Source: Halalkalibacter oceani
GTDB taxonomy: Bacteria; Bacillota; Bacilli; Bacillales; Bacillaceae_D
Assembly: GCF_023715605.1 (NCBI RefSeq)
Contig: NZ_JAMBOL010000001.1
Span: forward strand, 248,001-312,000
Length of the DNA stretch: 64,000 nt
Direction of reading: 5' to 3'
The position numbers were made by a program, and so were the translations under genes. Positions 12,276-43,956 of the stretch are shown here, piece after piece. The first letter of the stretch is position 1. The number at the start of each line of letters is the position of its first letter. A model generated the notes under the pieces. It was not told where the DNA came from. It searched no databases and worked only from the letters and a program-made list of their open reading frames with translations.

Positions 12276-12695
12276 ATGAAAATTTCAACGAAGGGACGTT
12301 ACGGTCTCACCATTATGATGGCATTAGCAAAAAAATCAGGTGAAGGACCTGTCTCGTTAAAATCGATTGCCAAGGAATATGATCTTTCCGAGCATTATTT
12401 AGAGCAATTAATTGCGCCATTGCGCAATGCGATGCTTGTAAAAAGCGTTCGTGGTGCTTACGGAGGATACATGCTGGCGAAAGACGCGAAAGAAATTACG
12501 GCGGGAGATATTATCCGCGTACTCGAAGGGCCGATCAGCCCGGTTGAGGTATTGGATGATGAGGAACCGGCGAAGCGCAACCTCTGGATCAAAATCCGTG
12601 ACGCCGTAAAAGACGTACTCGACCACACAACCCTCCACGACCTCGCAACCTACGAAGACGACGGCGAACAAGAATACTATATGTTTTATATTTAA
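12276..12695 (+). CDS. cymR: Cysteine metabolism repressor CymR (Rrf2 family)
   Basis: CymR represses cysteine and sulfur metabolism genes together with CysK. The 139 residues start MKISTKGRYGLTIM and include the helix-turn-helix SLKSIAKEYDLSEHYLEQL and the RGAYGGY wing. The segment ITAGDIIRVLEGPISPVE is almost unchanged from B. subtilis CymR. There are no cysteines at all, so it is the Fe-S-free branch and not IscR or NsrR. The cysteine desulfurase gene downstream is separated by a tandem repeat. Confidence 0.95.
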   Translation: MKISTKGRYGLTIMMALAKKSGEGPVSLKSIAKEYDLSEHYLEQLIAPLRNAMLVKSVRGAYGGYMLAKDAKEITAGDIIRVLEGPISPVEVLDDEEPAKRNLWIKIRDAVKDVLDHTTLHDLATYEDDGEQEYYMFYI

Positions 12696-12698
12696 GGA

Positions 12699-12950
12699 GC
12701 TGTCGCAGACAGCTCCGAAGCAGCGAGCGTAGTCTGCGCAAAGGTTGTAAAGCAAGAAGGGAACGCTTTTCTCCCTTCATGCGTGCGCAGAGCGAAGCCG
12801 CTGCAATATAAAAAGGCTGTCGCAGACAGCTCCGAAGCAGCGAGCGTAGTCTGCGCAAAGGTTGTAAAGCAAGAAGGGAACGCTTTTCTCCCTTCATGCG
12901 TGCGCAGGACGAAGCCGCTGCAATATAAAAAAGCTGTCGCAGACAGCTCG
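12699..12950 (+). repeat. 117-bp tandem repeat (2.15 copies), family C
   Basis: Unit starts at 12699, 12816 and 12933 give a period of exactly 117 bases. The third copy breaks off after GCTGTCGCAGACAGCTC. The two full units differ at only a few bases (GCGCAGAGCG against GCGCAGGACG). Each unit contains a GCTGTCGCAGACAGC palindrome and a larger hairpin with GAAGCAGCGAGCGTAGTCTG and GCGCAGAGCGAAGCCGCTGC arms. A diverged single copy lies at 55451-55524. It fills the whole cymR to desulfurase gap. Confidence 0.9.
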
Positions 12951-12975
12951 AGAACAATAAAGAAGGTGAATAAAG

Positions 12976-15251
<2,276 letters not shown>

Positions 15252-29977: not shown

Positions 29978-30041
29978 TAGCATAGGGAAAGTGAGGTTGC
30001 ATTTTAGGGGTAAGCCTTACTTTCTTTCATACATGTAAGCA

Positions 30042-30073
30042 ACTAAGAACTCGGAAACTGCCGAGTTCTTAGT
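30042..30073 (+). promoter_or_regulatory. Perfect 13-bp stem-loop between udk and greA
   Basis: ACTAAGAACTCGG (30042-30054) pairs perfectly with CCGAGTTCTTAGT (30061-30073) around the loop AAACTG. There is no T run after it, so it is not a standard terminator; it may be an RNA-processing or stability element, or an operator. Confidence 0.6.
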
Positions 30074-30130
30074 CTACATATGTGAAGCAATTATATTTTA
30101 TTTGAACAAGCAGATGAGGAGTGAGTCACA

Positions 30131-30607
30131 ATGGCGGAAGAGAAAAAACATTATATGACAATGGAAGGAAAACGCAAGCTGGAGGAAGAGCTCGAATATT
30201 TGAAGACGGAACGGCGCAAAGAAGTAGTGGAACGCATTAAGATTGCCCGCAGTTTCGGCGATCTTTCGGAGAACTCCGAATATGATTCAGCGAAAGAAGA
30301 GCAGGCGTTTGTCGAAGGGCGGATTATTCAGCTAGAAAAAATGATTCGCAATGCGGTGATGATTGAAGAAGAAGAAGGTTCAGAAAACGTTGTAACGCTT
30401 GGGAAGACGGTGAAGTTCATCGAACTTCCAGATGGCGATGAAGAAGAGTATACGATTGTTGGAAGCGCTGAATCTGATCCGGCTGAAGGAAAGATTTCCA
30501 ATGATTCTCCGATGGCGCAAAGCTTACTTGGAAAAGCAATCAATGACAAGGTAATGGTAAATACCCCTGGTGGAGAGATGGAAATTCAAATTGTTGATAT
30601 TCGCTAA
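30131..30607 (+). CDS. greA: Transcription elongation factor GreA
   Basis: It rescues backtracked RNA polymerase by stimulating transcript cleavage. The N-terminal coiled coil ([20 protein letters not shown], then [20 protein letters not shown] with the acidic tip) and the C-terminal FKBP-like domain ([12 protein letters not shown]) are complete. The 158 residues are normal. The ribosome site is AGGAGTGAG. It ends the conserved block before the TRAP locus. Confidence 0.97.
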
Positions 30608-30615
30608 GAACGCCC

Positions 30616-30665
30616 GGCTTGTCGGCCTGTCTCGTAATGGAGACCGGTAGGCAAGCTTTTATTTT
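30616..30665 (+). terminator. greA terminator
   Basis: A long imperfect stem (GCTTGTCGGCCTGTCTC with GAGACCGGTAGGCAAGC, with some G-U pairs) followed by TTTTATTTTT, nine bases after the greA stop. Confidence 0.8.
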
Positions 30666-31033
30666 TGCTTTCAAATATTATTCTAATATAACAAAAAGAT
30701 AAGTTAGTTAAGTATTTTGGTAAAATATTATAGATTATCTAACATAAAAATTAAAAGCGTTTTCAGTTATCTGACATAAATTCGTCATATATTCAGAAAG
30801 TTTATTGTTAGATTTTCTCACAAAGGTATAGAATTTTAGAAAAGTTTTTCATATAATGTAAGAGAATAAGTCACAGATGAAGAAAGGAGAATGTTAAATT
30901 AATTTCATTATGTCGCAAATTTATTTGTTCTTTTGGACATAATTACAAAAGGAGATTTAGCCGAATGGACAAATAGTTAGCGGGTACACTGTGTGTAACT
31001 AATTTTTAAAAAATTCAAAAAGGGGTATCAAGT
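30666..31033 (+). promoter_or_regulatory. AT-rich control region of the TRAP transporter genes
   Basis: This gene-free AT-rich stretch precedes dctP. It contains a cre-like site TAAAAGCGTTTTCA (30752-30765, one mismatch to the CcpA consensus). Two direct repeats TTATCTRACATAAA flank it (30735-30748 and 30767-30780, 32 bases apart). The first repeat overlaps the palindrome TAGATTATCTA (30731-30741). A TATAAT lies at 30853-30858 without a clear -35. Carbon-source control plus a pathway-specific regulator is the natural reading. Confidence 0.5.
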
Positions 31034-32119
31034 ATGAAAAAATTACTCGTATTATTACTGTCTGCGTTATTCTTGTTTGTTATCGCAGCATGTGGCGGCT
31101 CGGACGACACAAATGAAGGTACTGATGACGCTGCACCAGGTGAAGAAGCAACTGGAGATGCTGGAGATGCTGAATTTGAAGAATTGGTTATTACCTTTAG
31201 CCATAATCAACCAATTGAAAGCCCAGAGCACATTGGGGCTGAAAAGTTTAAAGAAGTAGTAGAAGAGCAAACTGGCGGAAAAGTAACAGTCGATGTTTAC
31301 CCGGCTTCGCAGCTTGGAAGCTTACGTGAACAAGTTGAAGGAACACAAATGGGTGAAATCGATATTACAATGCAGCCAACTGCTGTCGTTAGTCCGTTTG
31401 TTGATGACATTAAAGTAATCGATCTTCCATACTTATGGCCTGCAGATACAGAGCAAACGTATGAAGTGCTTGACGGAGAAGTTGGACAAGAAGTTTTAGC
31501 AACTCTTGGTCAAGGTGGATTTGAAGGACTAGGTTACTGGCCTGGCGGCTTTAAATTGTTCACGACAGGAAACAAGGAAATTCATGAGCCGGCTGACTTC
31601 CAAGGTTTAACGATGCGTGTTATGGAATCCCCGCTTTTAATTGAGCAATATGCAACATGGGGCGGAAATGCGATTCCTGTGCCTTACGCTGAAGTGTATA
31701 ACTCTTTACAGCAAGGTGTTGTTGATGGACAAGAAAATCCATTACAAACAATTTACTTAAATAATTATCATGAAGTTCAGGATAATATTATTGAAAGCTA
31801 CCATGGCACAATGACATATGTGTTAATGGCTAACCAAGGCTGGTATGCAGGACTTTCTGACGAGTTGAAGCAAGTAATTGCCCAAGCTGAAGAAGAAGGA
31901 CGTACTGCTGCGCGCCAAGCATTAAGCGAAGTGGAAGACGAGTACCGTCAAGCGATTATTGATTCTGGTGCGAACTATTATGAATTAACGGAAGAAGAAA
32001 TCGAAAGCTTCCGTGAAGCGTCACTGCCTATGCATGAGGAAGTGTACAACACACCTGAACAACTTGAACTGCTTCATAAGCTATATGAAGCGATTGACCA
32101 AGTAGCAGGTAATGAATAG
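31034..32119 (+). CDS. dctP: TRAP transporter substrate-binding lipoprotein (DctP family)
   Basis: The extracytoplasmic binding protein of a tripartite ATP-independent transporter. The N-terminus is a lipoprotein signal with the lipidated cysteine C20 (VIAAC-GG), followed by an acidic linker. The DctP fold is seen in ITFSHNQPIESPEHIGAEKF, and VPYAEVYNSLQQGVVDGQEN is the family signature with the ligand-contacting region. The 361 residues are normal. TRAP binding proteins usually take carboxylates; here the neighbouring genes suggest orotate or a related acidic ureide. Confidence 0.93.
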   Translation: MKKLLVLLLSALFLFVIAACGGSDDTNEGTDDAAPGEEATGDAGDAEFEELVITFSHNQPIESPEHIGAEKFKEVVEEQTGGKVTVDVYPASQLGSLREQVEGTQMGEIDITMQPTAVVSPFVDDIKVIDLPYLWPADTEQTYEVLDGEVGQEVLATLGQGGFEGLGYWPGGFKLFTTGNKEIHEPADFQGLTMRVMESPLLIEQYATWGGNAIPVPYAEVYNSLQQGVVDGQENPLQTIYLNNYHEVQDNIIESYHGTMTYVLMANQGWYAGLSDELKQVIAQAEEEGRTAARQALSEVEDEYRQAIIDSGANYYELTEEEIESFREASLPMHEEVYNTPEQLELLHKLYEAIDQVAGNE

Positions 32120-32503
32120 GACGTAACGAAAAAGTTAAAAGCCCGTAGTGGCTCCGTATATCGCTTGCCACGTTGAAGAGGGTGTCCCAGAAGCTTTCGG
32201 GACACCCTCTCTAAGCAATATGCGGTTCTGCTCCTGGCAGGTGGATAACGAGTTGATAGGATAACTCCGCTTGCACAAAAAAAGATGCGTCAGAACATTC
32301 CGCATTGCCGGCGGCTCAAGGATGAATGAGCGGGCCGACAGAAGGAGGACGACGCTTGCTGTATGGGGTTGTCTTTAAAGGTGCAAAAGTGATCCTTCAA
32401 AGGCATCCCCTGTTCTTTTAGATAAGGTGTGTAATGACGTTTCATCATACTAAAAGAAGGGCAAAGACTCCGCGTAAGACTTTTAGTAAAAGGAGAATGA
32501 ACA
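32120..32503 (+). promoter_or_regulatory. Long dctP-dctQ gap with attenuator-like hairpin
   Basis: The gap between the binding-protein gene and the permease genes is unusually long (384 bases). It contains a strong hairpin with AGAGGGTGTCCC and GGGACACCCTCT arms (32177-32210) but a poor T tract, then CTAAGCAATATGCGG, which resembles the start of repeat family B. The hairpin could reduce read-through and keep dctP expression above dctQM. No credible gene lies in the rest. The dctQ ribosome site is AAAAGGAGAATG. Confidence 0.55.
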
Positions 32504-32992
32504 ATGAAGTGGATCAATCGGATTGAGGAAGCTTTTGTTGGCATTTGTTTACTTGCTGTGACGATTGTCTTGTTTGTGAATATTGTGCTTCGTTTCGGCT
32601 TCAGTGCAAATACGAACTGGGCGGAAGAGGTTATTCGGTATGGCATGATCTGGATTACATTTATCGGAGCCGCGGTTTGTTTCCGGCGAGGTCTTCATGT
32701 AGGGATTGATTTTTTCCTCGATTATTTATCAAAGAAATGGGGCGCGATTATAGCGTTAGTCGTCAACCTGCTTTCCATCGTTTTTATGGCGTTTATTTTT
32801 TACTACAGTATTGAATTAGTGAAGTTCAGCATCGACTCCGGACAAATTACACCTTCGCTGCAAATTAAGATGTTTTACATTTATTTAGCGATTCCGATAG
32901 GGGCGCTCCTTTCACTTATTCATTTGGTCGTTCATACATTCAAGCTGTTTAAAGACCTGCAATCTAACACGATAGAGGAGAAACAACCATGA
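32504..32992 (+). CDS. dctQ: TRAP transporter small permease (DctQ)
   Basis: A 162-residue four-helix membrane protein. Hydrophobic segments lie at about 10-32, 48-65, 85-108 and 128-150, and the family motif WAEEVIRYGMIWITFIGA with GLHVGID follows the first helix. It joins the DctM permease to the binding protein. It overlaps dctM by four bases (ATGA), as is usual for these pairs. Confidence 0.93.
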   Translation: MKWINRIEEAFVGICLLAVTIVLFVNIVLRFGFSANTNWAEEVIRYGMIWITFIGAAVCFRRGLHVGIDFFLDYLSKKWGAIIALVVNLLSIVFMAFIFYYSIELVKFSIDSGQITPSLQIKMFYIYLAIPIGALLSLIHLVVHTFKLFKDLQSNTIEEKQP

Positions 32993-34260
32993 TTACTGTA
33001 TTGATTGTTTTGATTTTTATCTTCCTGTTTTCAAGTACTCCGATTTTTGTGTCGCTTGGATTGGCTTCTTTTGCAACGGTGCTTTTGACAACGGACATTA
33101 ACCCGATGATTTTGATACAGCGTCTGTTTGGCGGACTGGATCAGTTTGCGTTAATGGCGCTGCCGTTTTTCATCTTAGCAGCCAATATTATGGAAGTCGG
33201 CGGTTTGTCAAAACGGATTTTGGATTGGGCTCGTGCGATGGTCGGTCATATCTCCGGTGGAGTGGCGATGACGAGTCAGGTTTCGAGTATGTTCTTTGGG
33301 GCGCTTTCTGGTTCGAGTCCGGCGACAGTCGTCGCGATCGGAAAGATTATGTACCCTGAAATGATCAGAGGAAAGTATCATAACTGGTTTGCGGCGGGAC
33401 TTTTGGCTTCAGCCGGTTCGGTTTCCCTTATTATTCCACCAAGTATCACGTTAATCATCTTCGGTTCCGTGACAGGTGTCTCTGTCGGACAGCTTTTTAT
33501 CGCCGGTATCGGAGCGGGTCTCATTTATGGGCTTTCCTCTATTATTTATATTTATTTCTACGCCCGGAAGCATAATCTTGAGCGTGATAAGCGGGCAACG
33601 AGGCAGGAACTGCTGAGCACGACTTATAAAGCCGGCTGGGCTTTGCTGATTCCGGTCATTATTCTTGGCGGGATTTACGGCGGGATTTTCACTCCGACAG
33701 AAGCAGCTGGTGTCTCTGCGGTATATGCGTTATTAATCAGTATGTTTGTTTATAAGGAAATGACAGTAAAGAAATTATACCGCGTTTGTATCGACTCCGG
33801 GATTTTAACGGCCCAGGTACTCGTTCTTGTCGCCGCGGCCCAAGTGCTCGGCTGGATGCTGACGAGAGGTCAGGTGCCGCAAACAATTGCCGGCTGGATG
33901 ACGAGTACGATCGAGTCACCATTTATGTTCTTAATGATTCTAAATGTTGTGTTACTTGTGCTCGGGATGTTTATGGAAGGCGTCGCAGCTATTATTATTG
34001 TCGCTCCACTTATTTTCCCGACGGCAATGGCAATGGGAATCGACCCTGTTCATTTAGGGGTTATTATGATTTCGAATTTGGCAATCGGCATGTACACTCC
34101 GCCGTTTGGAATCAATATATTCGTCACCCAGGGGATAACCGGATTAAAAATGGGCGAAATGATGCCGGGCTTACTCCGTTTCTTCGCGGTCAATGTCCTT
34201 GCCTTGCTCGTCATTACGTATGTACCGGATGCATCTTTATTCTTGCTGCGTCTGTTGTAA
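32989..34260 (+). CDS. dctM: TRAP transporter large permease (DctM)
   Basis: The sodium-coupled transport subunit, with about 12 membrane segments in 423 residues. Typical DctM features are the early LPFFILAANIMEVGGLSKR, the SSMFFGALSGSSPATVVAIG hairpin loop, IIPPSI and the C-terminal MYTPPFGINIFVTQGI. Complete and in frame, it should form a working TRAP system with dctP and dctQ. The pucR-type regulator begins 30 bases later. Confidence 0.95.
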   Translation: MITVLIVLIFIFLFSSTPIFVSLGLASFATVLLTTDINPMILIQRLFGGLDQFALMALPFFILAANIMEVGGLSKRILDWARAMVGHISGGVAMTSQVSSMFFGALSGSSPATVVAIGKIMYPEMIRGKYHNWFAAGLLASAGSVSLIIPPSITLIIFGSVTGVSVGQLFIAGIGAGLIYGLSSIIYIYFYARKHNLERDKRATRQELLSTTYKAGWALLIPVIILGGIYGGIFTPTEAAGVSAVYALLISMFVYKEMTVKKLYRVCIDSGILTAQVLVLVAAAQVLGWMLTRGQVPQTIAGWMTSTIESPFMFLMILNVVLLVLGMFMEGVAAIIIVAPLIFPTAMAMGIDPVHLGVIMISNLAIGMYTPPFGINIFVTQGITGLKMGEMMPGLLRFFAVNVLALLVITYVPDASLFLLRLL

Positions 34261-34290
34261 TGTATCTCGCTAACAGGGGAGGATCGAAAA

Positions 34291-35895
34291 ATGGCCACTT
34301 CATTGAAAAAATTACTGAAAATTGGCGGCCTGCGCCACTGTAAGGTGGTTGCCGGCCATCAAGGCCTTGAGAAAAGCGTATCTTATGTGACGGTGATGGA
34401 AGTCCCGGATATTATTAATTGGTTAAAGGGAAACGAATTGCTGCTCACGAGTTTATATCCGATTAAGGACGATCCTGCCGCCCAGCTTGAACTGATTGAT
34501 CGCTTGTATGAAGTCGGGACAACGGCGGTGGCGGTGAAACCAAACCGTTTTATCGGGGCGATTCCGGACGAGATGAAAAGAAAGGCTGACGAATACGGGA
34601 TGCCTCTTCTGGAAATCCCGGAGGAAATCTCCTACCTGGATATTCTCTCACCGGCCATGAATGTCATTTTCGATGAAAAGGTAGTTCTTCAAGAGGATCT
34701 CGATCAAACAAGTCACTTATTAAGTGAAATTTCCCTGTATGAAAATGGGTTAAGCAGCTTTATGGATACGTTGGCGCTGCTGACGAAAACAGAGGTTTAT
34801 TTGGAGGCGTTGGCCCCTTATATTGAAGTTCCCCCGCAAAAGCATGAGCTCGCTCCTTTAACAACCCAACAAGTCAATGAATTAAAGGTTGTCCAGCGCG
34901 CTGTGCGGATGCCAAGAAGGAAGCAGGGCGAAGAACTGGAAGATTGCATTGTCTCTCCGATCATTATTGATGGGGAGTTGCAAGGGACGGTTTCAAGCTT
35001 CCATTCTCGTTCTGAATACATCGAGATGGAGCTGGCAATTTTAGAAAAGGCATCGATGCTATTGTCATTAGAGTTTCTGCGGAAAAAAGTAAAATACGAC
35101 ATAGAGCAGCAATATCGCAACGACTTCTTCCGTGATTTGTTTTTCAACCAATTTATTAACAAACAGGATTTGATTGATAAAGGGAAAATGTACGGCTATC
35201 AGGCGGAGGAAGCCTATGTCTGCATCTCTGTCAGCGGCAAGGAGGTGGAGGACGGCAAGCTGTTTGCTTCCGCGCTTGGCCGAATTGAAAGTGTGCTGAC
35301 CCAGGTTGAGGAAGACGTCGTAGTCGGTGCCGTCCGCCATTCTTTGTACGTCCTGTTGCCCGTAAAAGGCAGAACAAAGCCGGAGCTTAAGAAAATGATC
35401 GGTCAGTTCGCGACTGGAATTAAACAAGTGGTGCAGATAGATGTGTCTCTCGGAGTCGGCCGAACGTACAGTGGAGTAGACGGATTGCGTAAAAGCTTTC
35501 GGGAAGCTGAGCAAGCGGTCGTGTTTGGTCCGGTCTTCTGGAAGGATCAGCCGATTATCTATTTCACCAATCTTGGGGCTTATCGCTTAATTGCCCTGAT
35601 TGAAAACAGGGATGAACTGGAACAGTTTTATGATGAAACAGTCGGCCCGCTTGCCAAAAATGATTTGGACAGCGAATTGAATCTTGTTGAAACGCTGGAA
35701 CAATATTTTAAGCATAATGAATCATTAACGGAAACGGCGAAGGATTTGTTTATTCACGTCAACACACTGAAATACCGGCTTCAGAAAATAAAAGCCATTT
35801 CAGGCTTGAACCTCCAAAAAACAGAGGAAAAGCTAATGCTGAATATGGGATTGAAAATACATCGCTATCTGGAAAGTGACTGTCGATTTAGATAG
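34291..35895 (+). CDS. PucR-family transcriptional regulator
   Basis: A 534-residue activator-type regulator. The N-terminal PucR ligand domain is recognisable from VVAGHQGLEKSVSYVTVMEVPD. The middle CdaR/GGDEF-like region (about 280-420) is followed by the C-terminal PucR helix-turn-helix (NESLTETAKDLFIHVNTLKY). Known relatives respond to purine breakdown products. Its position between the TRAP genes and the catabolic enzymes makes it the likely local regulator of both. An inverted repeat TTTAGATA/TATCTAAA begins over its last codons and extends into the next promoter. Confidence 0.9.
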   Translation: MATSLKKLLKIGGLRHCKVVAGHQGLEKSVSYVTVMEVPDIINWLKGNELLLTSLYPIKDDPAAQLELIDRLYEVGTTAVAVKPNRFIGAIPDEMKRKADEYGMPLLEIPEEISYLDILSPAMNVIFDEKVVLQEDLDQTSHLLSEISLYENGLSSFMDTLALLTKTEVYLEALAPYIEVPPQKHELAPLTTQQVNELKVVQRAVRMPRRKQGEELEDCIVSPIIIDGELQGTVSSFHSRSEYIEMELAILEKASMLLSLEFLRKKVKYDIEQQYRNDFFRDLFFNQFINKQDLIDKGKMYGYQAEEAYVCISVSGKEVEDGKLFASALGRIESVLTQVEEDVVVGAVRHSLYVLLPVKGRTKPELKKMIGQFATGIKQVVQIDVSLGVGRTYSGVDGLRKSFREAEQAVVFGPVFWKDQPIIYFTNLGAYRLIALIENRDELEQFYDETVGPLAKNDLDSELNLVETLEQYFKHNESLTETAKDLFIHVNTLKYRLQKIKAISGLNLQKTEEKLMLNMGLKIHRYLESDCRFR

Positions 35896-35920
35896 TGAAA
35901 AAATCAGATTGTTATCTAAA
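35887..35920. promoter_or_regulatory. Candidate operator, TTTAGATA-N18-TATCTAAA
   Basis: Perfect inverted eight-base arms (35887-35894 and 35913-35920) lie just upstream of the catabolic operon. The TTATCTAA core is the same as in the two direct repeats upstream of dctP (30735 and 30767), which is what a shared PucR-type operator would look like. Confidence 0.45.
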
Positions 35921-36000
35921 TGAACAAAGGTTAACCACCGCTTAAAACGGAATGTATAACAGCATGAGAACAACTATGAATAAATTGAGGGTGGTTTTGC

Positions 36001-37260
36001 ATGAATAGAATTCGAGTGGTTCAAACGTTAGAAAAAATTAGCAAAATAGGCGCCACCGCTAATGGCATGGAGCGGATTGCCTATTCTGAGGCGGAAAGAC
36101 AGGCCAAGCAATTTGTGCGCGAGCAATGTGAACAGCTTGGGATGACGGTGAGAGAAGATGAAGCAGGAAATCTCATTGCCCGTAAGGAAGGCATTGACCC
36201 GTCCCTGCCGGCTGTAGCGGTCGGTTCTCATCTCGATACCGTCTATAATGGCGGGAAGTATGACGGAACGCTTGGTGTGATTGCCGGGCTGGAAATCGTC
36301 AGAATGCTGGCAGAGGAGGAAATCAATACGCTGCATCCCGTTGAACTGATTGCCTTTGCTTGTGAGGAATCGGCGCGATTTAATGCTTCAACGCTCGGCA
36401 GTAAAGCAATGACAGGTTTTCTTGATTTGGATTCGCTTCGGTCCTTGAAGGATAAGGATGATCGTTCAATCCAAGAAGTAGTAGCAGAGCAGGGGCTGGA
36501 ATTTGAGTCCATGACGAACGCGGCCCGGAGCAAAGAAGATATTAAAGTCTTTCTTGAGCTTCATATTGAACAGGGCAGTAAATTAATCGATCGTAACAAG
36601 ACGATCGGCGTTGTGACAGGGATTGCCGCCCCAATGCGACTATCACTTACCATTGACGGAAAAAGCTCTCACTCGGGTACAACAGGGATGAAGAACCGGA
36701 GCGATGCCTTTTTGGCAGCGGCCGAATTGTCACTGATTGTGGAAAAAGCAGCACTTGCCGAAGAGCAGTATGAAACGGTCGCAACCGTGGGTGTTGTCGA
36801 TGTTTTGCCTGGGGCTATGAATGTCGTCCCGGGGAAAGCATCGCTCAAGATTGACATCCGCAGCACGAATGGGGAATCAAGAAAGCGCGTCCTTGCCGCG
36901 ATTAAGCAGGAAATCGAAAGAGTGGAGCAGTCACGCAACGTAAAGGTGACGATTGATTGGCAAACAGAAGAAGAGCCGGTGATGATGGATGAGATGCTCG
37001 TCAAGAAAATGGCGACCATTTGTGAAAACCGGCGTATCCCCTATTCCTTTTTGCCAAGCGGGGCGGGCCATGACTCGATGTACATGGCGAAACGCTGGCC
37101 GACTGCACTGCTGTTTGTTCCTTCCGTTGACGGTCTGAGCCATCACCCGGATGAATTTACAGAGGCTGGCGATATCATGACAGGCATTGGTGTCATGAAG
37201 GAAGCTGTTTTAGCGTATGCCATTGAAGTTAACAACAAGAGTAAAAGGAGAAAAGCATAA
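36001..37260 (+). CDS. M20 amidohydrolase, carbamoylase/allantoate amidohydrolase type
   Basis: A dinuclear-zinc hydrolase of the AllC, hydantoinase/carbamoylase and beta-ureidopropionase group (419 residues). Metal and catalytic residues are visible: H77 and D79 in GSHLDT, D88 in KYDGT, E122-E123 in CEES, H188 in LHIEQG, plus SHSGTTGM and GAGHDSMYMA. This group removes a carbamoyl group from ureido compounds, releasing CO2 and NH3. With the dihydroorotase-like gene downstream, N-carbamoyl-L-aspartate is the favoured substrate. Its stop overlaps the next start (TAATG). Confidence 0.88.
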   Translation: MNRIRVVQTLEKISKIGATANGMERIAYSEAERQAKQFVREQCEQLGMTVREDEAGNLIARKEGIDPSLPAVAVGSHLDTVYNGGKYDGTLGVIAGLEIVRMLAEEEINTLHPVELIAFACEESARFNASTLGSKAMTGFLDLDSLRSLKDKDDRSIQEVVAEQGLEFESMTNAARSKEDIKVFLELHIEQGSKLIDRNKTIGVVTGIAAPMRLSLTIDGKSSHSGTTGMKNRSDAFLAAAELSLIVEKAALAEEQYETVATVGVVDVLPGAMNVVPGKASLKIDIRSTNGESRKRVLAAIKQEIERVEQSRNVKVTIDWQTEEEPVMMDEMLVKKMATICENRRIPYSFLPSGAGHDSMYMAKRWPTALLFVPSVDGLSHHPDEFTEAGDIMTGIGVMKEAVLAYAIEVNNKSKRRKA

Positions 37261-38045
37261 TGAAAGCACAACAAGTCACGATCCTGACAAATGTACAAGT
37301 GAGTGAACGCTATTGGCATATGACAGTCGATACGAGTGAAATCGCCGAGAAGGTGCATCCGGGCCAGTTTTTTAATATTCTTTGTGAACAAAGCGTCTAT
37401 CCTTTTTTAAGAAGACCGCTCAGTGTGTACCGCATTGATGATGAGGCAAATACGCTTGAATTTCTCTACCTCGTAAAAGGACTCGGCACAACAAAAATGA
37501 CAGAATTCAAGGCAGGCGAGAAGATTGATATCTTCGGTCCACTTGGGGTCGGCTTTGATCTGAAGGAGGAGTACGAATCAATTTTGCTGCTGGCCAGAGG
37601 GGTAGGAGTCGCGACGTTGGCAGCACTCGCCTTTGAGGCGGCACAAAAGGGGAAGAAGGTTCATGCGATTCTCAGTGCTCGCAGTGAAAATGATTTGCTT
37701 GCTGCTGATTTTCTTGAAGGGCTTGGCGTGAGCGTCTATAAAGTAACGGATGAATCAGGCACGAGCGATGTTGAAAAAGTCGAAGCGTTGATCGGGAACA
37801 TTATGGGCGCTCAGGCGATTGACGCTCTGTACACATGCGGCTCAAAGCGGCTGTCCCGCCTGATGCAAAGACTGGCGATCAAGCATCAGCTTCCGGGAGA
37901 AATTGCGCTTGAAGAGCATATGGGCTGCGCAATGGGCGTCTGCTTTGCCTGTGTTTGTGATATTCGGGAAGGCGATGATGTGAAAAGTGTCCGCGTCTGC
38001 CATGAAGGGCCTGTTTTCCCGTTAGAAAAGGTGGTGTTAGCATGA
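37260..38045 (+). CDS. PyrK-like FAD/2Fe-2S electron-transfer subunit
   Basis: A 261-residue ferredoxin reductase-like protein. RRPLSVYRI is the flavin-binding signature. The NAD-binding loop reads ARGVGVATL, with the usual leading Gly-Gly changed. Four cysteines in the PyrK pattern (C223, C228, C231 and C247, in MGCAMGVCFACVC...RVCHEG) should bind a 2Fe-2S cluster. In class 1B dihydroorotate dehydrogenase PyrK passes electrons between NAD(H) and the FMN of PyrD, and the reaction is reversible. The next gene is pyrD-like and overlaps by four bases. This is not the biosynthetic pyr operon. Confidence 0.9.
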   Translation: MKAQQVTILTNVQVSERYWHMTVDTSEIAEKVHPGQFFNILCEQSVYPFLRRPLSVYRIDDEANTLEFLYLVKGLGTTKMTEFKAGEKIDIFGPLGVGFDLKEEYESILLLARGVGVATLAALAFEAAQKGKKVHAILSARSENDLLAADFLEGLGVSVYKVTDESGTSDVEKVEALIGNIMGAQAIDALYTCGSKRLSRLMQRLAIKHQLPGEIALEEHMGCAMGVCFACVCDIREGDDVKSVRVCHEGPVFPLEKVVLA

Positions 38046-39001
38046 CCGAATTAAAATTAGCAGTTGATATTGGCGGCCTAACATTAAAAAATCCGATCAT
38101 GCCGGCATCGGGTGCGTTCGGTCCTGAGATGGATAAGATCATCGACTTTAATCAGCTTGGCGCGCTTGTGCCAAAGAGCATCACGATTGAAGCAAGACCG
38201 GGAAATGCAACGCCGCGCGTTTGTGAAACAACGGCAGGAATGATTAATTCAATCGGGATTCAAAGCAAGGGAATTGAGTATTACATGGAGCATTATGTAC
38301 CTTATTACGCCCAGTTTGATACGCCGCTTATTGCCAGCCTTTCAGCCGGCTCGGTCGATGAGTTTGCTGAATTGGCTGACATCCTTGCTGCCGATAGCCG
38401 GATTGATGCGCTTGAACTAAACATTTCCTGTCCGAATTTAAAAGGAAATGGTCTGGCGTTCGGAATGGATGCCGACTTAACGTATAAGCTCGTCCAGAAA
38501 GTACGCGCTGTTACGGATAAACCGATTATCAGCAAGCTGACGCCAAATGTGACAAGCATTCAGGAGATCGCTAAAGCGGCAGAGGCAGGCGGCAGTAATT
38601 CTTTAAATGTAGCCAATACGCTGCTGGCGATGGCGATCGATGTAGAGACAAGAAAGCCGAAGATCGGCAATGTAATGGGAGGTCTCTCCGGTCCGGCGGT
38701 TAAACCGATTATCGTCCGCCTGATTTACCAAGTGGCGCAGGCGGTTAACATTCCGATTATCGGCTGTGGCGGAGTCGCAACGGCCGAGGATGCGATTGAA
38801 ATGATGCTTGCCGGAGCGAGCGCGGTTCAGGTCGGTACGGCAAGCTTCATTCAGCCGACAGCGATGATCGATATTTTGCGGGATGTCAAAGCCTACATGG
38901 AGCGTCATCATATTCCAGATATTCAGGAGTTAATTGGTCAGGTTCACATTCAAAAAGAGATAAAGGAAGTGGAGCTAAATGAAATGGGACTTAGTTATTA
39001 A
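38042..39001 (+). CDS. PyrD-like dihydroorotate dehydrogenase (class 1B) catalytic subunit
   Basis: An FMN TIM-barrel protein of 319 residues. The catalytic cysteine is C130 in LNISCPN, the position used in class 1 dihydroorotate dehydrogenases. GMINSIGIQ, NTLLAMAIDVETRKP and GGLSGPAVKPI match PyrD rather than dihydropyrimidine dehydrogenase (which has SCPHGM and GGVSG). It overlaps both neighbours and pairs with the PyrK-like subunit. In this context it probably reduces orotate to dihydroorotate; a related cyclic ureide is possible. Confidence 0.9.
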   Translation: MTELKLAVDIGGLTLKNPIMPASGAFGPEMDKIIDFNQLGALVPKSITIEARPGNATPRVCETTAGMINSIGIQSKGIEYYMEHYVPYYAQFDTPLIASLSAGSVDEFAELADILAADSRIDALELNISCPNLKGNGLAFGMDADLTYKLVQKVRAVTDKPIISKLTPNVTSIQEIAKAAEAGGSNSLNVANTLLAMAIDVETRKPKIGNVMGGLSGPAVKPIIVRLIYQVAQAVNIPIIGCGGVATAEDAIEMMLAGASAVQVGTASFIQPTAMIDILRDVKAYMERHHIPDIQELIGQVHIQKEIKEVELNEMGLSY

Positions 39002-40376
39002 AAACGGTACGGTTGTCACAAATCAGGAAGAGTTTCGCGCGAATCTTTTTATTAAAGACGGGATCATTCAGGCCGTTACCGCTGAGGAGCTGCCTGGTGA
39101 AGCGGCGGATACGATCGATGCTGCCGGGAAATATGTATTCCCGGGCTTTATGGATACCCATGTACATTCCCGTGATCCTGGTGCAACCTACAAGGAAGAT
39201 TTCTATCATTCCTCCTTGGCGGCAGCGGCCGGCGGAATTACAGCCGTCTTTGAAATGCCGAACACAAATCCGCCGATTAACAATCCTGAAAACTTTCAAA
39301 AGCAGGTCGACAATTTAGCAAGCAAAGCCTTTGTCGATTATGGCATCTGGGCGATTTGTCTCGGGCATTTAAATCTTGATAAGCTTTCTTCTCTGCATGA
39401 AGCGGGTGTGATTGGCTTTAAGTTTTTCTGGGGATATGCCGTCCATGCGAAAACGTATCAGCTGATGTATAACTACAAAACGGGGATGGAAGATGTCATT
39501 CCACCATTCGGCGACGGCGATGTCTATGACATGTTTGTCGAAGTCGCGAAAACAGGCCAGATGCTGGCGATTCATGCTGAGAACAATGATTTGATTCAGC
39601 ATTTAACAAATAAAGTCGAAGCGCGCGGCGGTCGCACTTACGAGGATCTGCTTGAAGGACGTCCTAATTTGGCCGAAGAGCTCACAGTTCACTCCGGCAT
39701 TGCGATGGCGAAGCAGACTGGCGCCCGTCTTCATATCCTCCATGTCAGCACGGCAGAGGCTGTTGAAGCGATCCGTCAGGCGCAGCAGGAAGGCTATCCA
39801 ATTACAGCGGAAACGTGTCCGCATTATCTGTTCCTGTCGGCTGAAGATTATGATAAGGTCGGCCCGCAGATGAAGGTTTATCCTCCTGTTAAATATAAGA
39901 AGGATCAGGAAGCGTTGTGGGAAGGCATTAAGGATGGCACGATTTCCTTTGTCTGCTCAGACCATGCTCCGCATACCGAGGAGGAAAAAGACGGCGATCT
40001 CTGGTCGATTCCGGCAGGCATGTGCGGGGTAGAGACGCTTGCCCCGTTAATGCTTGACGCCGCGGCGAAAGGCACGATTTCCCGCACGGATGTCACGAGC
40101 CTGCTCGCGGAAGCGCCGGCAAAGCTGTTCGATATTTATCCGAAGAAAGGCTCTTTACGTGTCGGAACGGATGCTGACATTACAATCGTTGATATGGAGC
40201 AGGAATATACGCTGCGACGCGAAGCTTTGCATAGCAAAAGCAAAGTAACCGCTTATGACGGTTTTGAGGTGAAGGGCAAGCCGGTTTATACGATCGTCCG
40301 TGGCCATGTCGTGATGGCCGATGGTGAACTGACTACGACGCCGGTTGGCCAATTGATTAACCCAAGAACGATTTAA
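38979..40376 (+). CDS. Dihydroorotase-like cyclic amidohydrolase
   Basis: A 465-residue metal-dependent amidohydrolase. Metal ligands H61 and H63 lie in DTHVHSRDPG. R65 in that motif and N95 in EMPNTNPP are the residues dihydroorotases use to hold the substrate carboxylate, and allantoinases lack the arginine. K148 in GFKFFWGY could be the carbamylated metal-bridging lysine of hydantoinase-type enzymes. ILHVST, ETCPHYL and CSDHAPH complete the site. It overlaps pyrD-like by 23 bases. Ring opening to an N-carbamoyl amino acid is the expected reaction. Allantoinase or hydantoinase remain alternatives. Confidence 0.87.
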   Translation: MKWDLVIKNGTVVTNQEEFRANLFIKDGIIQAVTAEELPGEAADTIDAAGKYVFPGFMDTHVHSRDPGATYKEDFYHSSLAAAAGGITAVFEMPNTNPPINNPENFQKQVDNLASKAFVDYGIWAICLGHLNLDKLSSLHEAGVIGFKFFWGYAVHAKTYQLMYNYKTGMEDVIPPFGDGDVYDMFVEVAKTGQMLAIHAENNDLIQHLTNKVEARGGRTYEDLLEGRPNLAEELTVHSGIAMAKQTGARLHILHVSTAEAVEAIRQAQQEGYPITAETCPHYLFLSAEDYDKVGPQMKVYPPVKYKKDQEALWEGIKDGTISFVCSDHAPHTEEEKDGDLWSIPAGMCGVETLAPLMLDAAAKGTISRTDVTSLLAEAPAKLFDIYPKKGSLRVGTDADITIVDMEQEYTLRREALHSKSKVTAYDGFEVKGKPVYTIVRGHVVMADGELTTTPVGQLINPRTI

Positions 40377-40409
40377 CAGGCTTTGCTGACAGGCAGGTCT
40401 TAATGTAGA

Positions 40410-40456
40410 GGTGTCACAAAAGTCCGGGTAACGGCCTTTTGCGACAACCTCTTTTC
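40410..40456 (+). terminator. Hairpin between the amidohydrolase and capA-like genes
   Basis: AGAGGTGTCACAAAAG and CTTTTGCGACAACCTCT arms around CCGGGTAACGGC, followed by TTTTC. It may end the enzyme operon or only weaken read-through to the capA-like gene. Confidence 0.6.
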
Positions 40457-40485
40457 ATCATTATGTACAAAAGGAGCAGACGACA

Positions 40486-41760
40486 GTGCGCTTTGTAGCT
40501 ACCGGAGACAGTTTTATTACGAGAAGAATGACGGAAAAAGAACAGGATCAAGACTTAATGTCGTTAATCGGCGAGGCGGACTGCCGCTTTACGAATCTCG
40601 AAGTGACAACCCATCATTACGAAGGCTACCCTTCAGCGATGAGCGGCGGTACATGGGCGATCGCGCCTCCCACCGTCCTAAGCGATTTGAAGTATTATCA
40701 ATTTAACTGCGTCACATGGGCGAATAATCATACATTGGATTATTTGTACGGCGGGCTTGAGGCAACGGAACGCTATTTGGACGAGGCTGGTTTCGTTCAT
40801 GCCGGTGTCGGCAAGCATCTTGATGCGGCGGCGGCGCCAAAATATTTGGAAAGCCCTGCCGGAAGAATCGCGATCATTGGTGCCACTTCCACGTTCCACG
40901 AGTTTTGGCGAGCGGGCAAGCAGCGTGGAGACAGCCTCGGACGCCCGGGCGTCAATCCACTCCGCTATCAAACGACATTTTATTTAAATCAGAAAAATAT
41001 GGAGCACCTTCAACAGGTAGCCGCTGTGACCGGCATTAATGCCGAGCATGAGTTAGCCGTCAAAGAAGGCTTCGCTCTGGCCGGCGCCCAATATAAATTC
41101 GGCGATTATTCCTTTGAGCTGAGTGAAGAAGAAGGAATGAAACGTCATTTGCATGAAGGCGATGTAAAAAGAATTAGAGCGGCGATCGCCAATGCAAAGC
41201 GTCAGGCCGACTACGTGTTAATGAGCATCCATACGCATGAAATGGGCGAGGGGCGTAAGGATGTTGCTCCTGATTTTCTCGAAGACTTCGCCCGCCTCTG
41301 TATCGATGAAGGAGCGCATGCCGTCATTGGGCATGGTCCTCATATCGTCCGCGGGATCGAAATTTATAAAAACCGTCCGATTTTCTACAGCTTGGGCAAT
41401 TTTATTTTTCAAAATGACACCGTGGCAACCTTGCCGCATGACTTTTATGAACAGTATGGAATCGAAGGCGAAGCGACGGTCGCGGACGCTCTTGATATCC
41501 GCAGCGCAAATGGAACGAGAGGGCTTGGCGTTAATAAAAAAGTTTGGGAGTCCGTCGTCCCGCTCTGGGAGATGGAGGATGGCAAGCTGACAAGCTTACG
41601 TTTGCATCCGATTGAGCTCGGTTTCGGATTGCCCCGCTATGAGCGCGGCTGGCCGAAGCTGTCTGCCAATCTCGATGTTCTCTATGATTTGCAGCGTTTA
41701 TCGGAGCCTTACGGGACGAAAATCACGATTAAAGACGGCGTTGGCCACGTATCTCTGTAA
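40486..41760 (+). CDS. CapA-family metallophosphoesterase-like protein, cytoplasmic
   Basis: The PGA_cap fold of poly-gamma-glutamate protein CapA/PgsA is clear: ATGDSF, TNLEVTTH, ANNHTLDYL, SIHTHEMG, GHGPHIVRGIEI and FYSLGNFIF keep the conserved metal-site Asp, Asn and His residues. Unlike CapA/PgsA it has no signal peptide or membrane anchor, so it acts inside the cell. It starts at GTG after AAAGGAGCAGACGACA. Lying 109 bases behind a ureide-degrading operon, it may process a pathway intermediate or a conjugate; this is inference. No capsule genes are present. Confidence 0.8.
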   Translation: MRFVATGDSFITRRMTEKEQDQDLMSLIGEADCRFTNLEVTTHHYEGYPSAMSGGTWAIAPPTVLSDLKYYQFNCVTWANNHTLDYLYGGLEATERYLDEAGFVHAGVGKHLDAAAAPKYLESPAGRIAIIGATSTFHEFWRAGKQRGDSLGRPGVNPLRYQTTFYLNQKNMEHLQQVAAVTGINAEHELAVKEGFALAGAQYKFGDYSFELSEEEGMKRHLHEGDVKRIRAAIANAKRQADYVLMSIHTHEMGEGRKDVAPDFLEDFARLCIDEGAHAVIGHGPHIVRGIEIYKNRPIFYSLGNFIFQNDTVATLPHDFYEQYGIEGEATVADALDIRSANGTRGLGVNKKVWESVVPLWEMEDGKLTSLRLHPIELGFGLPRYERGWPKLSANLDVLYDLQRLSEPYGTKITIKDGVGHVSL

Positions 41761-41834
41761 TCCCCATTCTCTTCATGGCAAATTTATGCGATAATAGAAT
41801 TCATACACAATGTCGCAAAGAATGAGGTGAGATG

Positions 41835-42041
41835 ATGAGTAAAGTGGAAAGAGTGAGTTATTTCAGTGAGCTTTATAAGCTGATCAATTTATATTCTTAC
41901 AAACGCGATCTCGTAGTCGATGAAGAAACGGCAAATTTCTTTGAAAATGTAAAAAAGTATTGCGAGCTGCTCGAGTTGGATTATGAAGCCTTAAAAAAGG
42001 AATTTGACCTGCTGGAGCCGAGTGACTTTACCGATAACTAA
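41835..42041 (+). CDS. Hypothetical protein (68 aa), helical and acidic
   Basis: Not recognised. The sequence (SYFSELYKLINLYSYKRDLV ... FFENVKKYCELLELDYEALKK) predicts two or three helices and no membrane segment. GAGGTGA lies just upstream; the second of two adjacent ATGs (41835) has the better spacing. A terminator follows at 42069-42115, so it is a monocistronic unit. Codon use fits the chromosome. Confidence 0.7.
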   Translation: MSKVERVSYFSELYKLINLYSYKRDLVVDEETANFFENVKKYCELLELDYEALKKEFDLLEPSDFTDN

Positions 42042-42068
42042 GACAGGGATCCGCTGACGCCCCTGGGA

Positions 42069-42115
42069 GGATGTATCAAAAGGTGATCAAAGCCTGCTGA
42101 TGCATCCTTTTTTCG
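42069..42115 (+). terminator. Terminator after the 41.8-kb small gene
   Basis: GGATGTATC and GATGCATCC arms around a 20-base loop, followed by six T. Confidence 0.8.
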
Positions 42116-42255
42116 CTAAAATGACGCAAGAAAAGTAAGCCGTTGGCCGGGGATTGGCATCATGGTTAAATAGACATGGTTGTAAAGCCTACCTCGCCAA
42201 TTGGAGAAAGTTCTTGTATAATACGGATGAGAGATAGGAAAAGGAGAGTGGAGTT

Positions 42256-42873
42256 ATGCAAGGGTATCGTTTTGAGCAACGCAAAAAGCAGCGAATCAAT
42301 CGGATACTAAACATAGCGATTGGGGTCGTTGTCCTTCTGATCCTTGTATTTGGAGCACAGATCTTTTTTGGATCATCTCCCTCTGAGGAAGCAGCACTTG
42401 ACCAAGAGGAGTCTGTCGAGGAAGAACCAGAGCGAGAAGCCATTACTGATCCAGCTGAGCCTGTAGAACAGCCGGATGAACCGGCAGAGGAAAGAGAGCC
42501 GGTGGATCAGGAAAATGAGATAGATGAGCAAGAGAATGATAGCGACGCAGAACGCGATTTGGAACCCGTCCCGGACGGTGAATGGGAGCCGGTCGGCACA
42601 TCGCAGACAGGTGAGTTCGCTCCTGATTTTACCCAAGGAAGCACAAATTGGAATGAGATGGAGAGAGCTTTGCGCTATGCAACAGGTCTTGATGAAAATA
42701 TGATCGTTTGGCGTCTTGAAAATGGAGGAAGCCCTACGAGAGCGCGCGGCGTCGTCAGTGCTCCGGACAGCCAGGAACAGCCGTATGAAGTGTTTATTGA
42801 ATGGGTCGATGGAAGAGGCTGGATGCCGGTTGACAAGCAGCAGCTTGCCGAAAATCCATACCGCAGAGGATAA
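42256..42873 (+). CDS. yrrS: YrrS-like membrane protein (DUF1510)
   Basis: A single-pass protein of 205 residues: a basic N-terminus (YRFEQRKKQRINR), one membrane helix (about 18-38), a long Glu/Pro/Asp-rich linker (about 45-115) and a C-terminal DUF1510 domain (WNEMERALRYATGLD ... VYFIEWVDGRGWMPV-like block). B. subtilis yrrS lies near greA and the penicillin-binding protein gene pbpI, suggesting a cell-envelope role; pbpI is not present here. The ribosome site is AAAAGGAGAGTGGAG. Confidence 0.85.
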   Translation: MQGYRFEQRKKQRINRILNIAIGVVVLLILVFGAQIFFGSSPSEEAALDQEESVEEEPEREAITDPAEPVEQPDEPAEEREPVDQENEIDEQENDSDAERDLEPVPDGEWEPVGTSQTGEFAPDFTQGSTNWNEMERALRYATGLDENMIVWRLENGGSPTRARGVVSAPDSQEQPYEVFIEWVDGRGWMPVDKQQLAENPYRRG

Positions 42874-42902
42874 GAACAGAAGCAATGAAAGGAAGCCCTG
42901 TT

Positions 42903-42952
42903 TTGGGCCTTAGAAAAAAGGTTGATAGTTACCTTTTTTCTAAGGCTCTTTG
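42903..42952. terminator. Convergent terminator, yrrS / DUF2536 gene
   Basis: GCCTTAGAAAAAAGGT and ACCTTTTTTCTAAGGC form a perfect 16-base stem around TGATAGTT. Stems of the GGTTG...T-run...AACC type recur at several gene ends here. Confidence 0.8.
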
Positions 42953-43146
42953 TAGTGGACTACAGCCGTGTAGACGGGCCTCTCCGTTTTTGGATGAATA
43001 TGGACGCTGTGCTGGACGGAGTGGACACGCAGCAGCAATGCTTTGTTCTGTTCGATTTTGTCGTTTATCAAGGCTTCAAGTTTGGGCAGATCAAAAGCTT
43101 CATAGAATTCAATTTTGTCTCCGATACGGTCTAATTGAATCGCCAT
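42940..43146 (-). CDS. DUF2536 family protein (YrzA-like)
   Basis: A 68-residue protein with the pattern of the DUF2536/YrzA family: DKIEFYEAFDLPKLEALINDKIEQN, a basic KALLLRVHSVQHSVHI strand and the closing TAVVHYK. The ribosome site GGAGAATAGAG is upstream. B. subtilis yrzA is also near mtnN. Its stop codon is inside the convergent terminator stem. The function is unknown. Confidence 0.75.
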   Translation of the reverse strand: MAIQLDRIGDKIEFYEAFDLPKLEALINDKIEQNKALLLRVHSVQHSVHIHPKTERPVYTAVVHYKEP

Positions 43147-43260
43147 CTCTATTCTCCTTTTTCGCTATGCGTTTTTTCTTTATTATCTTAGCAAAGATGC
43201 GTGCAAATGAAAATGAAACCTGTATAATAGGTTTGATGATATGGATAAGGAGTGTTACGC

Positions 43261-43956
43261 GTGAGAATTGGGATTATTGGAGCGATGGACGAAGAAGTGG
43301 AATTAATCAAAGGAAAGCTGGATAATCGTCAGGATACAACGATTGCCGGATGTGAGTTTCATCAAGGGAAGCTGGACGGCACAGAAGTGGTCCTGCTGAA
43401 ATCAGGGATTGGTAAAGTGAATGCGGCGGTTGGCACGACGCTTTTGATTCAGCTGTTTGAGCCGACATGCATTATTAATACAGGATCAGCCGGCGGCTTT
43501 CATGAGCAATTGAAGGTCGGCGATATTGTTATTTCAACTGAGGTGCGTTACAACGACGTGGAAGCGACCGTCTTTGGCTACGAGTTTGGTCAGGTGCCGG
43601 GAATGCCGGCTTACTACACACCGGATCAAAGGCTTGTCGAAGTGGCGCAAAAGGCGGCCGAAAAGGTTGGCATTCATGCCGTGACAGGCTTGATCGTATC
43701 CGGCGATTCGTTTATGAGCGATCATCAGCGGGTCGAGGAGTTAAAGCAGATTTTCAATCATCCTTATTGTGCGGAAATGGAAGCAGGAGCGATCGCTCAA
43801 GTTTGCTACCAATTCGGCATGCCTTTTGTTATTATCCGCTCACTGTCTGACATCGCCGGAAGCGATGCGAAAGTGTCCTATGATCAATTTCTGGAAACAG
43901 CTTCCGTCCATTCCGCGAAGCAGGTGCTGTTAATGGTCGAGGCATTGGCTGAATAA
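43261..43956 (+). CDS. mtnN: 5'-methylthioadenosine/S-adenosylhomocysteine nucleosidase
   Basis: It cleaves methylthioadenosine and S-adenosylhomocysteine in methionine salvage and SAM recycling. The 231 residues include [27 protein letters not shown] and the catalytic aspartate in [10 protein letters not shown]. The GTG at 43261 with AAGGAGTGTTACGC upstream is the natural start; a longer upstream frame has no ribosome site. A TATAAT is visible at about 43223, so it probably has its own promoter. Confidence 0.96.

Follow-up and report, generated by a model that had tools for sequence, protein, structure and literature searches.

A conserved operon with a predicted role in orotate degradation in Halalkalibacter oceani and its relatives

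Layout of the locus

The window analysed here is a stretch of 64,000 nucleotides from Halalkalibacter oceani (contig NZ_JAMBOL010000001.1, positions 248,001 to 312,000), and its subject is an operon of nine genes, all on the + strand, filling an interval that an initial annotation had read as a candidate locus for orotate import and degradation. In order, these are dctP, dctQ, dctM, pucR, the gene of an M20 carbamoylase, a pyrK-like gene, a pyrD-like gene, the gene of a cyclic amidohydrolase (AHase) and a PGA_cap gene. We argue that the operon is probably a conserved catabolic locus that takes orotate through dihydroorotate and N-carbamoyl-aspartate to aspartate.

Gene families were assigned using the cut-offs of Pfam and NCBIfam models, which bore out the TRAP, PucR, M20, PyrK-like, PyrD-like and dihydroorotase-like genes listed in the initial annotation. 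The TRAP transporter consists of the solute-binding protein DctP (31034–32119; over the cut-offs of PF03480 and TIGR00787, the latter with 224.6 bits against 175.05), the small permease DctQ (32504–32992; over that of PF04290) and the large permease DctM (32989–34260; over those of PF06808 and TIGR00786), followed by a PucR-type transcription regulator (34291–35895; over those of PF07905 and PF13556). The enzymes encoded are the M20 carbamoylase, a predicted N-carbamoyl-L-aspartate amidohydrolase (36001–37260), a PyrK-like electron-transfer subunit (FAD, 2Fe-2S; 37260–38045), a PyrD-like class 1B catalytic subunit, predicted to be an orotate reductase (38042–39001), and AHase, predicted to be dihydroorotase-like (38979–40376). 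As had been described, the enzyme genes overlap or touch, M20/PyrK by 1 base, PyrK/PyrD by 4 and PyrD/AHase by 23; DctQ and DctM overlap by 4. The PGA_cap gene (40486–41760), inside the interval and left out of the earlier argument, encodes a protein of the MslH (lasso-peptide epimerase) type that passes the PF09587 cut-off and is a predicted epimerase of N-acyl or N-carbamoyl amino acids.

Each start is preceded by a purine-rich stretch, and the flanking genes look like housekeeping genes, with udk and greA upstream and mtnN downstream (named by eye). An Rfam scan of positions 30000–43300 gave no matches. Promoter and terminator scans found 18 and 20 sites against 17.0 and 12.9 expected, and were not usable for placing the operon borders.

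PyrD and PyrK are distinct from the biosynthetic copies

In what follows, L labels denote fetched genome stretches and G labels genomes searched. The source genome (G000; 4.47 Mb, 99.95% complete) contains three DHO_dh matches: the operon copy, a copy on contig C47 and a PreA-like copy on contig C91. The C47 copy sits in a carB-pyrK-pyrD-pyrF-pyrE stretch (pyrF, pyrE and carB read by eye), and an amidohydrolase near this pyr operon groups with PyrC. The PreA-like match adjoins a PreT-like gene (by eye) and another amidohydrolase; because this pair sits elsewhere, uracil has its own place in the genome. A locus-type PyrD (63–100% identity) was found in 13 of the 15 genomes searched with the locus PyrD, and all 13 hold a second PyrD at 42–47%. 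Only the latter kind is present in G023 and G161, whose loci lack pyrDK, G023 having a PreA-like match as well. The initial annotation would have been undone by a genome without any other pyrD, pyrK or pyrC; given the C47 pyrK-pyrD pair, the PyrC-group gene and the further PyrD that accompanies the locus copy in 13 of 13 genomes, the idea that the locus genes are the sole pyrD and pyrK is rejected.

In a PyrD tree of 34 rows, 16 biosynthetic rows fall on one side of a branch (support 99/99), and 16 locus rows together with PreA on the other; one row, L185 (from L050), forms a long branch and its position is unsure. The residues follow the same division. All 16 locus PyrDs read PKS and GMINSIGIQSKG, the latter a locus-specific motif; G(M/I)LNAIGLQNPG stands in 15 of the 16 biosynthetic rows and GIMNSVGLENPG in the remaining one, L185; and the two PreA rows read GFNNIEL and ELNFGCP. 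Dihydroorotate dehydrogenase (DHODH) motifs, not PreA ones, are present in 16/16 locus PyrDs, namely Lys45, the Asn of GMIN, ELNISCPN with its Cys, and an Asn-Thr pair. These positions align with residues of Lactococcus lactis PyrDB that we take to bind or contact orotate. Uracil catabolism by the locus PyrD was rejected on these motifs.

The window PyrD passes the cut-offs of NF005574 (381 bits against 269) and TIGR01037 and has the catalytic Cys130 named in the initial annotation, within ELNISCPN, as expected of a type 1 PyrD of class 1B. Among solved structures it is closest to the DHODH chains 5ue9, 5ksw and 1ep1, of which 1ep1 is named PyrDB. The PyrK-like protein is over the PF10418 cut-off, and its four-Cys motif is that of the genome's other PyrK. 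The locus pair resembles L. lactis PyrD-PyrK (1ep1–1ep3) in its catalytic Cys, its flavin and substrate motifs and the PyrK four-Cys motif; it differs from class 1B PyrD-PyrK in that these genomes' second PyrD shares only 42–47% identity with that of the window, in its own motif and in being encoded with hydrolases. Two further dehydrogenase families, X1 and X2, branch with the dihydropyrimidine dehydrogenases, apart from class 1B, in the description given by Barba et al. (PMC4016543); on that description, as far as it goes, the locus PyrD would be neither.

The amidohydrolase carries a dihydroorotase-type residue set

Arg65, Asn95 and His332 of AHase (which also has Lys148) are kept in 23/23 distinct orthologues examined, a count that covers 26 rows including 3 duplicates, orthologues first found in the order-wide survey described below lying outside it. 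The duplicates dropped were L007, L047 and L048, which repeat L036, L146 and L149 in the AHase tree, and also L042, which is the same contig as L034. We assume that the Arg, Asn and His of the dihydroorotase active site bind the substrate carboxylate. The complete set occurs in 7/7 rows grouped as PyrC, and Arg or His in none of the 22 allantoinase-group rows, the groups being named from motifs and tree, with model scans for the minority of rows. The initial annotation had taken Arg65 and Asn95 as marks of a dihydroorotase. Both residues are indeed present, but Asn95 is non-diagnostic because allantoinase-labelled rows also read MPN, and as a marker by itself it is rejected. The allantoinase-type motifs N/S/D-E/D-PG and DHSP were not found in AHase, which reads SRDPG and DHAPH instead.

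In an 84-row tree, the 23 locus AHases form a single clade (100/100), apart from the 7 PyrC and 22 allantoinase rows. Trees, which had been proposed as a check, separate both the locus PyrDs and the locus AHases from biosynthetic PyrD and PyrC. In hidden Markov model searches, AHase scores 358.8 on TIGR00857 (pyrC_multi), over the cut-off of 279.05, and stays at 377.4 of 631 on NF004839 and 285 of 688 on NF005960, both allantoinase models.

The M20 enzyme belongs to the N-carbamoyl amino acid hydrolases

The M20 carbamoylase scores 421 bits against a cut-off of 204 on TIGR01879 and is also over the cut-off of NF006771, an allantoate amidohydrolase subfamily; its best solved relative is the N-carbamoyl-L-amino acid hydrolase 3n5f. 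The residues H77, D88, E122/E123, H188 and H381, presumably those of the metal site, are invariant in 8 rows, as expected of an M20 N-carbamoyl hydrolase. Arg213 is likewise invariant in 8/8 aligned rows and is a Trp in 3n5f; that it might hold the side-chain carboxylate of the substrate is only a guess.

Conservation and variants of the operon

M20, pyrK, pyrD and AHase occur together in 19 of the 19 distinct loci with a locus PyrD (the window, L034, L035, L043, L044, L045, L145–L154, L268, L271 and L279), more than chance would give; 15 of these also have the PGA_cap gene. Among named records, the TRAP form of the operon is found in Halalkalibacter, Aquibacillus, Salibacterium and Halobacillus. 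An MFS gene is present in L043, L044, L154, L268 and L279, where TRAP genes do not show in the stretch. The MFS genes of L043 and L154 are nearest to aromatic acid/H+ symporters, and those of L044, L268 and L279 are 64–66% identical to that of L043. A nitroreductase-like gene lies between AHase and PGA_cap in L045 and L145–L153, with none in the window or L034. More widely, an NfsA-like gene of the nitroreductase family lies by or near AHase in L043, L045, L047, L048, L145–L153, L270, L278 and L283, and the two copies scanned, those of L043 and L045, pass the NF008033 cut-off.

A survey of 397 genomes of the order found a close AHase in 25 of them (28 copies, E 1e-140), and for 14 of the 28 copies a PyrD is present in the fetched stretch. 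Other copies keep different company. In L269 and L277, AHase and M20 are accompanied by genes for a TRZ/ATZ-type deaminase and for a binding protein of the Opp-like kind, a layout shared with L046 and, with a PGA_cap gene added, with L036; as a guess, these deaminase-type clusters act on an imino-ring precursor of a carboxylated hydantoin. L270, L278 and L283 are AHase-nitroreductase pairs without PyrD, and L281 has AHase with M20, IclR and MFS genes and no pyrDK. Seven further copies (L272–L276, L280 and L282) have no other enzyme genes adjacent, the L274 stretch having an MFS gene and L282 being a 5 kb contig. AHase-M20 thus seems to be a ring-opening and decarbamoylating core that different front ends can feed, with some AHases standing alone.

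Neighbouring genes at the substrate and product ends

The L044 locus (Pullulanibacillus pueri) spans about 14 kb and comprises MFS, ornithine-cyclodeaminase-like, malic-enzyme-like, pucR, M20, pyrK, pyrD, AHase, PGA_cap and aspartase genes; the ornithine-cyclodeaminase-like gene is 30% identical to that of L036, and the malic-enzyme-like gene scores 361.9 bits, below its model cut-off of 1178. L144 contains M20, PGA_cap, a NadX-type aspartate dehydrogenase (over TIGR03855), aspartase and AHase, with no PyrD in the stretch. The aspartate ammonia-lyases of L044 and L144 are over the TIGR00839 cut-off (753.6 and 761 against 681.2). At the other end of the pathway, an orotidine 5'-monophosphate (OMP) decarboxylase of a second type (pyrF_sub2) sits immediately upstream of dctP in G020 (L035, positions 12342–13328, near the contig end), and this family gave no match in the other 14 genomes searched. 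In L154, some 500 bp lie between the end of the locus and a same-strand group made up of pyrE-pyrF-pyrD-pyrK and a carB-like gene (by eye). Entry of orotate and exit of aspartate explain these neighbours together: the aspartase, aspartate dehydrogenase, OMP decarboxylase and pyr genes near loci in relatives fit orotate in, aspartate out.

L154 has both kinds of pyrK-pyrD pair, the catabolic and the biosynthetic, on a single strand and at most about 10 kb apart.

Proposed pathway and its alternatives

In the proposed pathway, the TRAP transporter would take up orotate, and PyrD-PyrK, a class 1B DHODH paralogue, would reduce it with NADH to L-dihydroorotate, as its residues and the logic of the pathway suggest. 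AHase, with its dihydroorotase-type Arg-Asn-His set, would open the ring to N-carbamoyl-L-aspartate, from which M20, to judge from its family, would irreversibly remove the carbamoyl group to give L-aspartate, CO2 and ammonia. This irreversible decarbamoylation would set the direction of the pathway. In some relatives, the neighbouring aspartase, aspartate dehydrogenase and malic-enzyme-like genes may feed aspartate into central metabolism. PucR would induce the operon. The least certain step is that of the MslH-like protein, probably an accessory epimerase converting D-N-carbamoyl-aspartate or ring forms to the L form that M20 needs. The DHODH motifs in 16/16 PyrDs, the Arg-Asn-His set in 23/23 AHases and the aspartase, OMP decarboxylase and pyr neighbours support orotate degradation, the function first proposed for the locus.

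Several results weigh against this pathway. Four NCBIfam PyrK equivalog models match the PyrK-like protein, all below cut-off, though PF10418 passes. AHase exceeds the cut-off of the allantoinase model TIGR03178 (385.2 against 357.85); its AlphaFold model (predicted local distance difference test, pLDDT, 91) is nearest to the L-hydantoinase 1gkr and to allantoinases, the first dihydroorotase, 2gwn, appearing at rank 17, and it groups with known dihydroorotases neither in the tree nor in fold. AHase therefore combines a dihydroorotase-like residue set with a hydantoinase-like frame. The fetched stretch holds no PyrD for 14 of the 28 AHase copies (a few stretches being cut by contig ends), so AHase also serves where orotate is not reduced. 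It adjoins PyrC in L050 (a Lachnospiraceae metagenome-assembled genome; PyrC over the NF006839 cut-off) and in L206 (67% identical to the L050 PyrC), and since PyrC lies alongside, AHase may act otherwise there; the L050 genome, perhaps incomplete, has one PyrD match in all. The MFS genes of L043 and L154 stay below the aromatic-acid model cut-off (about 320 of 418.55). For the MslH-like part of the pathway, it counts that L035, L268, L271 and L279 have no PGA_cap gene, L279 being cut by the contig end.

Another carboxylated cyclic ureide that opens to N-carbamoyl-aspartate, such as 5-carboxymethylhydantoin or its unsaturated form, is the likeliest alternative, with PyrDK reducing an unsaturated precursor and AHase-M20 doing the rest. 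The fold and model scores of AHase lean towards hydantoinase and allantoinase, and its Arg-Asn-His set could hold a side-chain carboxylate too. In L036, L046, L269 and L277, PyrDK is replaced beside the AHase-M20 core by the TRZ/ATZ-type deaminase (best models below cut-off) and an Opp-like transporter or binding protein, and one of these four loci, L036, has the MslH-like gene. M20 is also related to ErtE, an N-carbamoyl-L-glutamate hydrolase (392 bits, cut-off 520). We nevertheless regard this substrate as unlikely, given that the DHODH motifs are kept in all 16 locus PyrDs, that OMP decarboxylase or pyr genes adjoin two loci and that aromatic-acid-type MFS genes replace TRAP.

A salvage locus running in the biosynthetic direction, in which orotate for pyrimidine synthesis is made by oxidation of dihydroorotate or N-carbamoyl-aspartate brought into the cell, is more doubtful still. 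The PyrD and dihydroorotase reactions are reversible, and pyr genes adjoin the locus in L154, as does the OMP decarboxylase in G020; but the M20 carbamoylase of the same overlapping gene set would destroy N-carbamoyl-aspartate, the aspartase beside two loci would use up the product, and biosynthetic-type pyr genes are already present. Reductive uracil or thymine degradation, or degradation of hydantoin or allantoin, is very improbable: AHase and M20 exceed the TIGR03178 and NF006771 cut-offs and PucR is typical of purine catabolism, but the PreA motifs are not in the locus PyrD, allantoinase-type residues are missing in 23/23 AHases examined, apart from those two scores nothing in the nine genes is specific to allantoin, and the PreA match lies elsewhere with PreT-like and amidohydrolase genes.

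Comparison with known systems

The biochemistry of orotate breakdown was already known in the 1950s, and orotate fermentation by Clostridium (Faecalicatena) oroticum uses a class 1B DHODH, a dihydroorotase and an N-carbamoyl-aspartate hydrolase. The same three activities are predicted here in the same order, again with a class 1B DHODH; what differs is that the genes here make up a Bacillales operon, with TRAP uptake genes and an MslH-like gene among them. The dihydroorotase and class 1B DHODH of C. oroticum are the subjects of works cited in PMC9326563, as its reference list indicates. OroP, treated in PMC12802215, is a different orotate transporter. No gene cluster for orotate breakdown was found among the open-access matches listed, judged by title and start of abstract, with subscription journals mostly outside this scope; nor did matches listed for CapA with hydantoinase, calcineurin-like epimerases or ergothioneine and hydantoin include a relevant gene cluster.

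ErtD and ErtE, the hydantoin-5-propionate and N-carbamoyl-L-glutamate amidohydrolases, are a comparable pair of hydrolases, one acting on a carboxylated cyclic ureide and the other on the N-carbamoyl form of a dicarboxylic amino acid, but the operon proteins are well below the cut-offs of their models (334 of 650 and 392 of 520 bits). To our knowledge, the ergothioneine ErtD/ErtE system has no redox subunits. ErtD was also looked for in two genomes of the genus, with a view to its Arg-Asn-His positions, and nothing there scored over cut-off.

If the proposed pathway is correct, the operon supplies genes for orotate breakdown together with a regulator and a transporter, the annotation of PyrD-like, allantoinase-like and 'capsule synthesis' proteins in several Bacillota would be corrected, and a wider catabolic role of MslH-type epimerases could be tested with it. 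Of all the genes, the MslH-like one most merits further study.

The MslH-like gene and its association with M20 hydrolases

Three MslH sequences are the only solved relatives of the PGA_cap protein found by sequence search at E 0.001, and MslH entries are the top four fold matches of its model (best E 7.9e-41, TM 0.79). PMC10406935 gives the MslH active-site residues as D11, E44, N87, H88, D91, H259, H261 and H295. These eight are matched by D8, E39, N81, H82, D85, H249, H251 and H286 of the window protein, and the set (DENHDHHH) is kept in 33/33 copies examined. The model of the protein is only moderate (pLDDT 74.5), with residues 82–87, including H82 and D85, under 50, so the placement of these two rests on sequence alignments. 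On the curated MslH model NF038314 the protein scores 289.9 of 700 bits, below the equivalog cut-off. The MslH-like protein is a predicted epimerase. MslH itself (PMC10406935) is a Ca-dependent epimerase of the C-terminal Trp of a lasso peptide; the genes studied here share its eight active-site residues and fold but are mostly near M20 hydrolases, and lasso-peptide genes were not noticed in the loci, no search having been aimed at them. For contrast with ordinary PGA_cap genes, 20 loci were compared: in place of the H-x-H-E of the MslH type, H-F/W-G is found in L220, L221 and L222, and HFHWG in L225; a simple pattern gave another or no match in the other ordinary copies, and the contrast rests on few rows.

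An MslH-like gene is present in 12 of 397 genomes of the order (E 1e-30), with two in G000, and a match in 21 of 397 genomes of the family to which G422 belongs (23 copies, 100% down to 30% identity), of which 15 copies were examined (L050 and 14 fetched stretches), the weakest being among the other 8. Of the 33 MslH-like loci, 19 have AHase, all 19 with M20; in 10 of the 14 AHase-less loci a same-strand M20-type gene lies no more than 8.5 kb away, giving 29 of 33 near such a gene. The background, from 218 Peptidase_M20 matches in 12 genomes (about 38.4 Mb), works out at a chance of roughly 10% for a stretch of 18 kb, counting either strand; the 33 loci are not independent and no P value is claimed. 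This supports a role of the MslH-like protein beside M20 hydrolases. An aspartase-like gene is found in 2 of the 14 AHase-less loci, L219 (over NF008909, below TIGR00839) and L217 (BLAST only).

More speculatively, these genes may represent an unrecognised family of catabolic epimerases, with a calcineurin fold and a single metal, that change the configuration at the alpha-carbon of a residue, whether N-acyl, N-carbamoyl or at a peptide C-terminus, for cleavage by stereospecific M20 hydrolases. Their substrate would be N-carbamoyl-D-aspartate or its ring form in the operon and imported peptides or N-acyl amino acids in Lachnospiraceae, with aspartate once more in some loci.

The second MslH-like copy of G000, 57% identical, is located beyond the window (L143; C36:360500–380400), some 80 kb downstream from the operon. 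Its neighbours are an Opp-type ABC transporter and a pair of M20-type genes, and AHase is missing there. In four Lachnospiraceae-type loci (L208, L211, L212 and L213), the MslH-like gene stands beside serine beta-lactamase-like genes (by eye), and three of the four also have Opp-type transporter genes.

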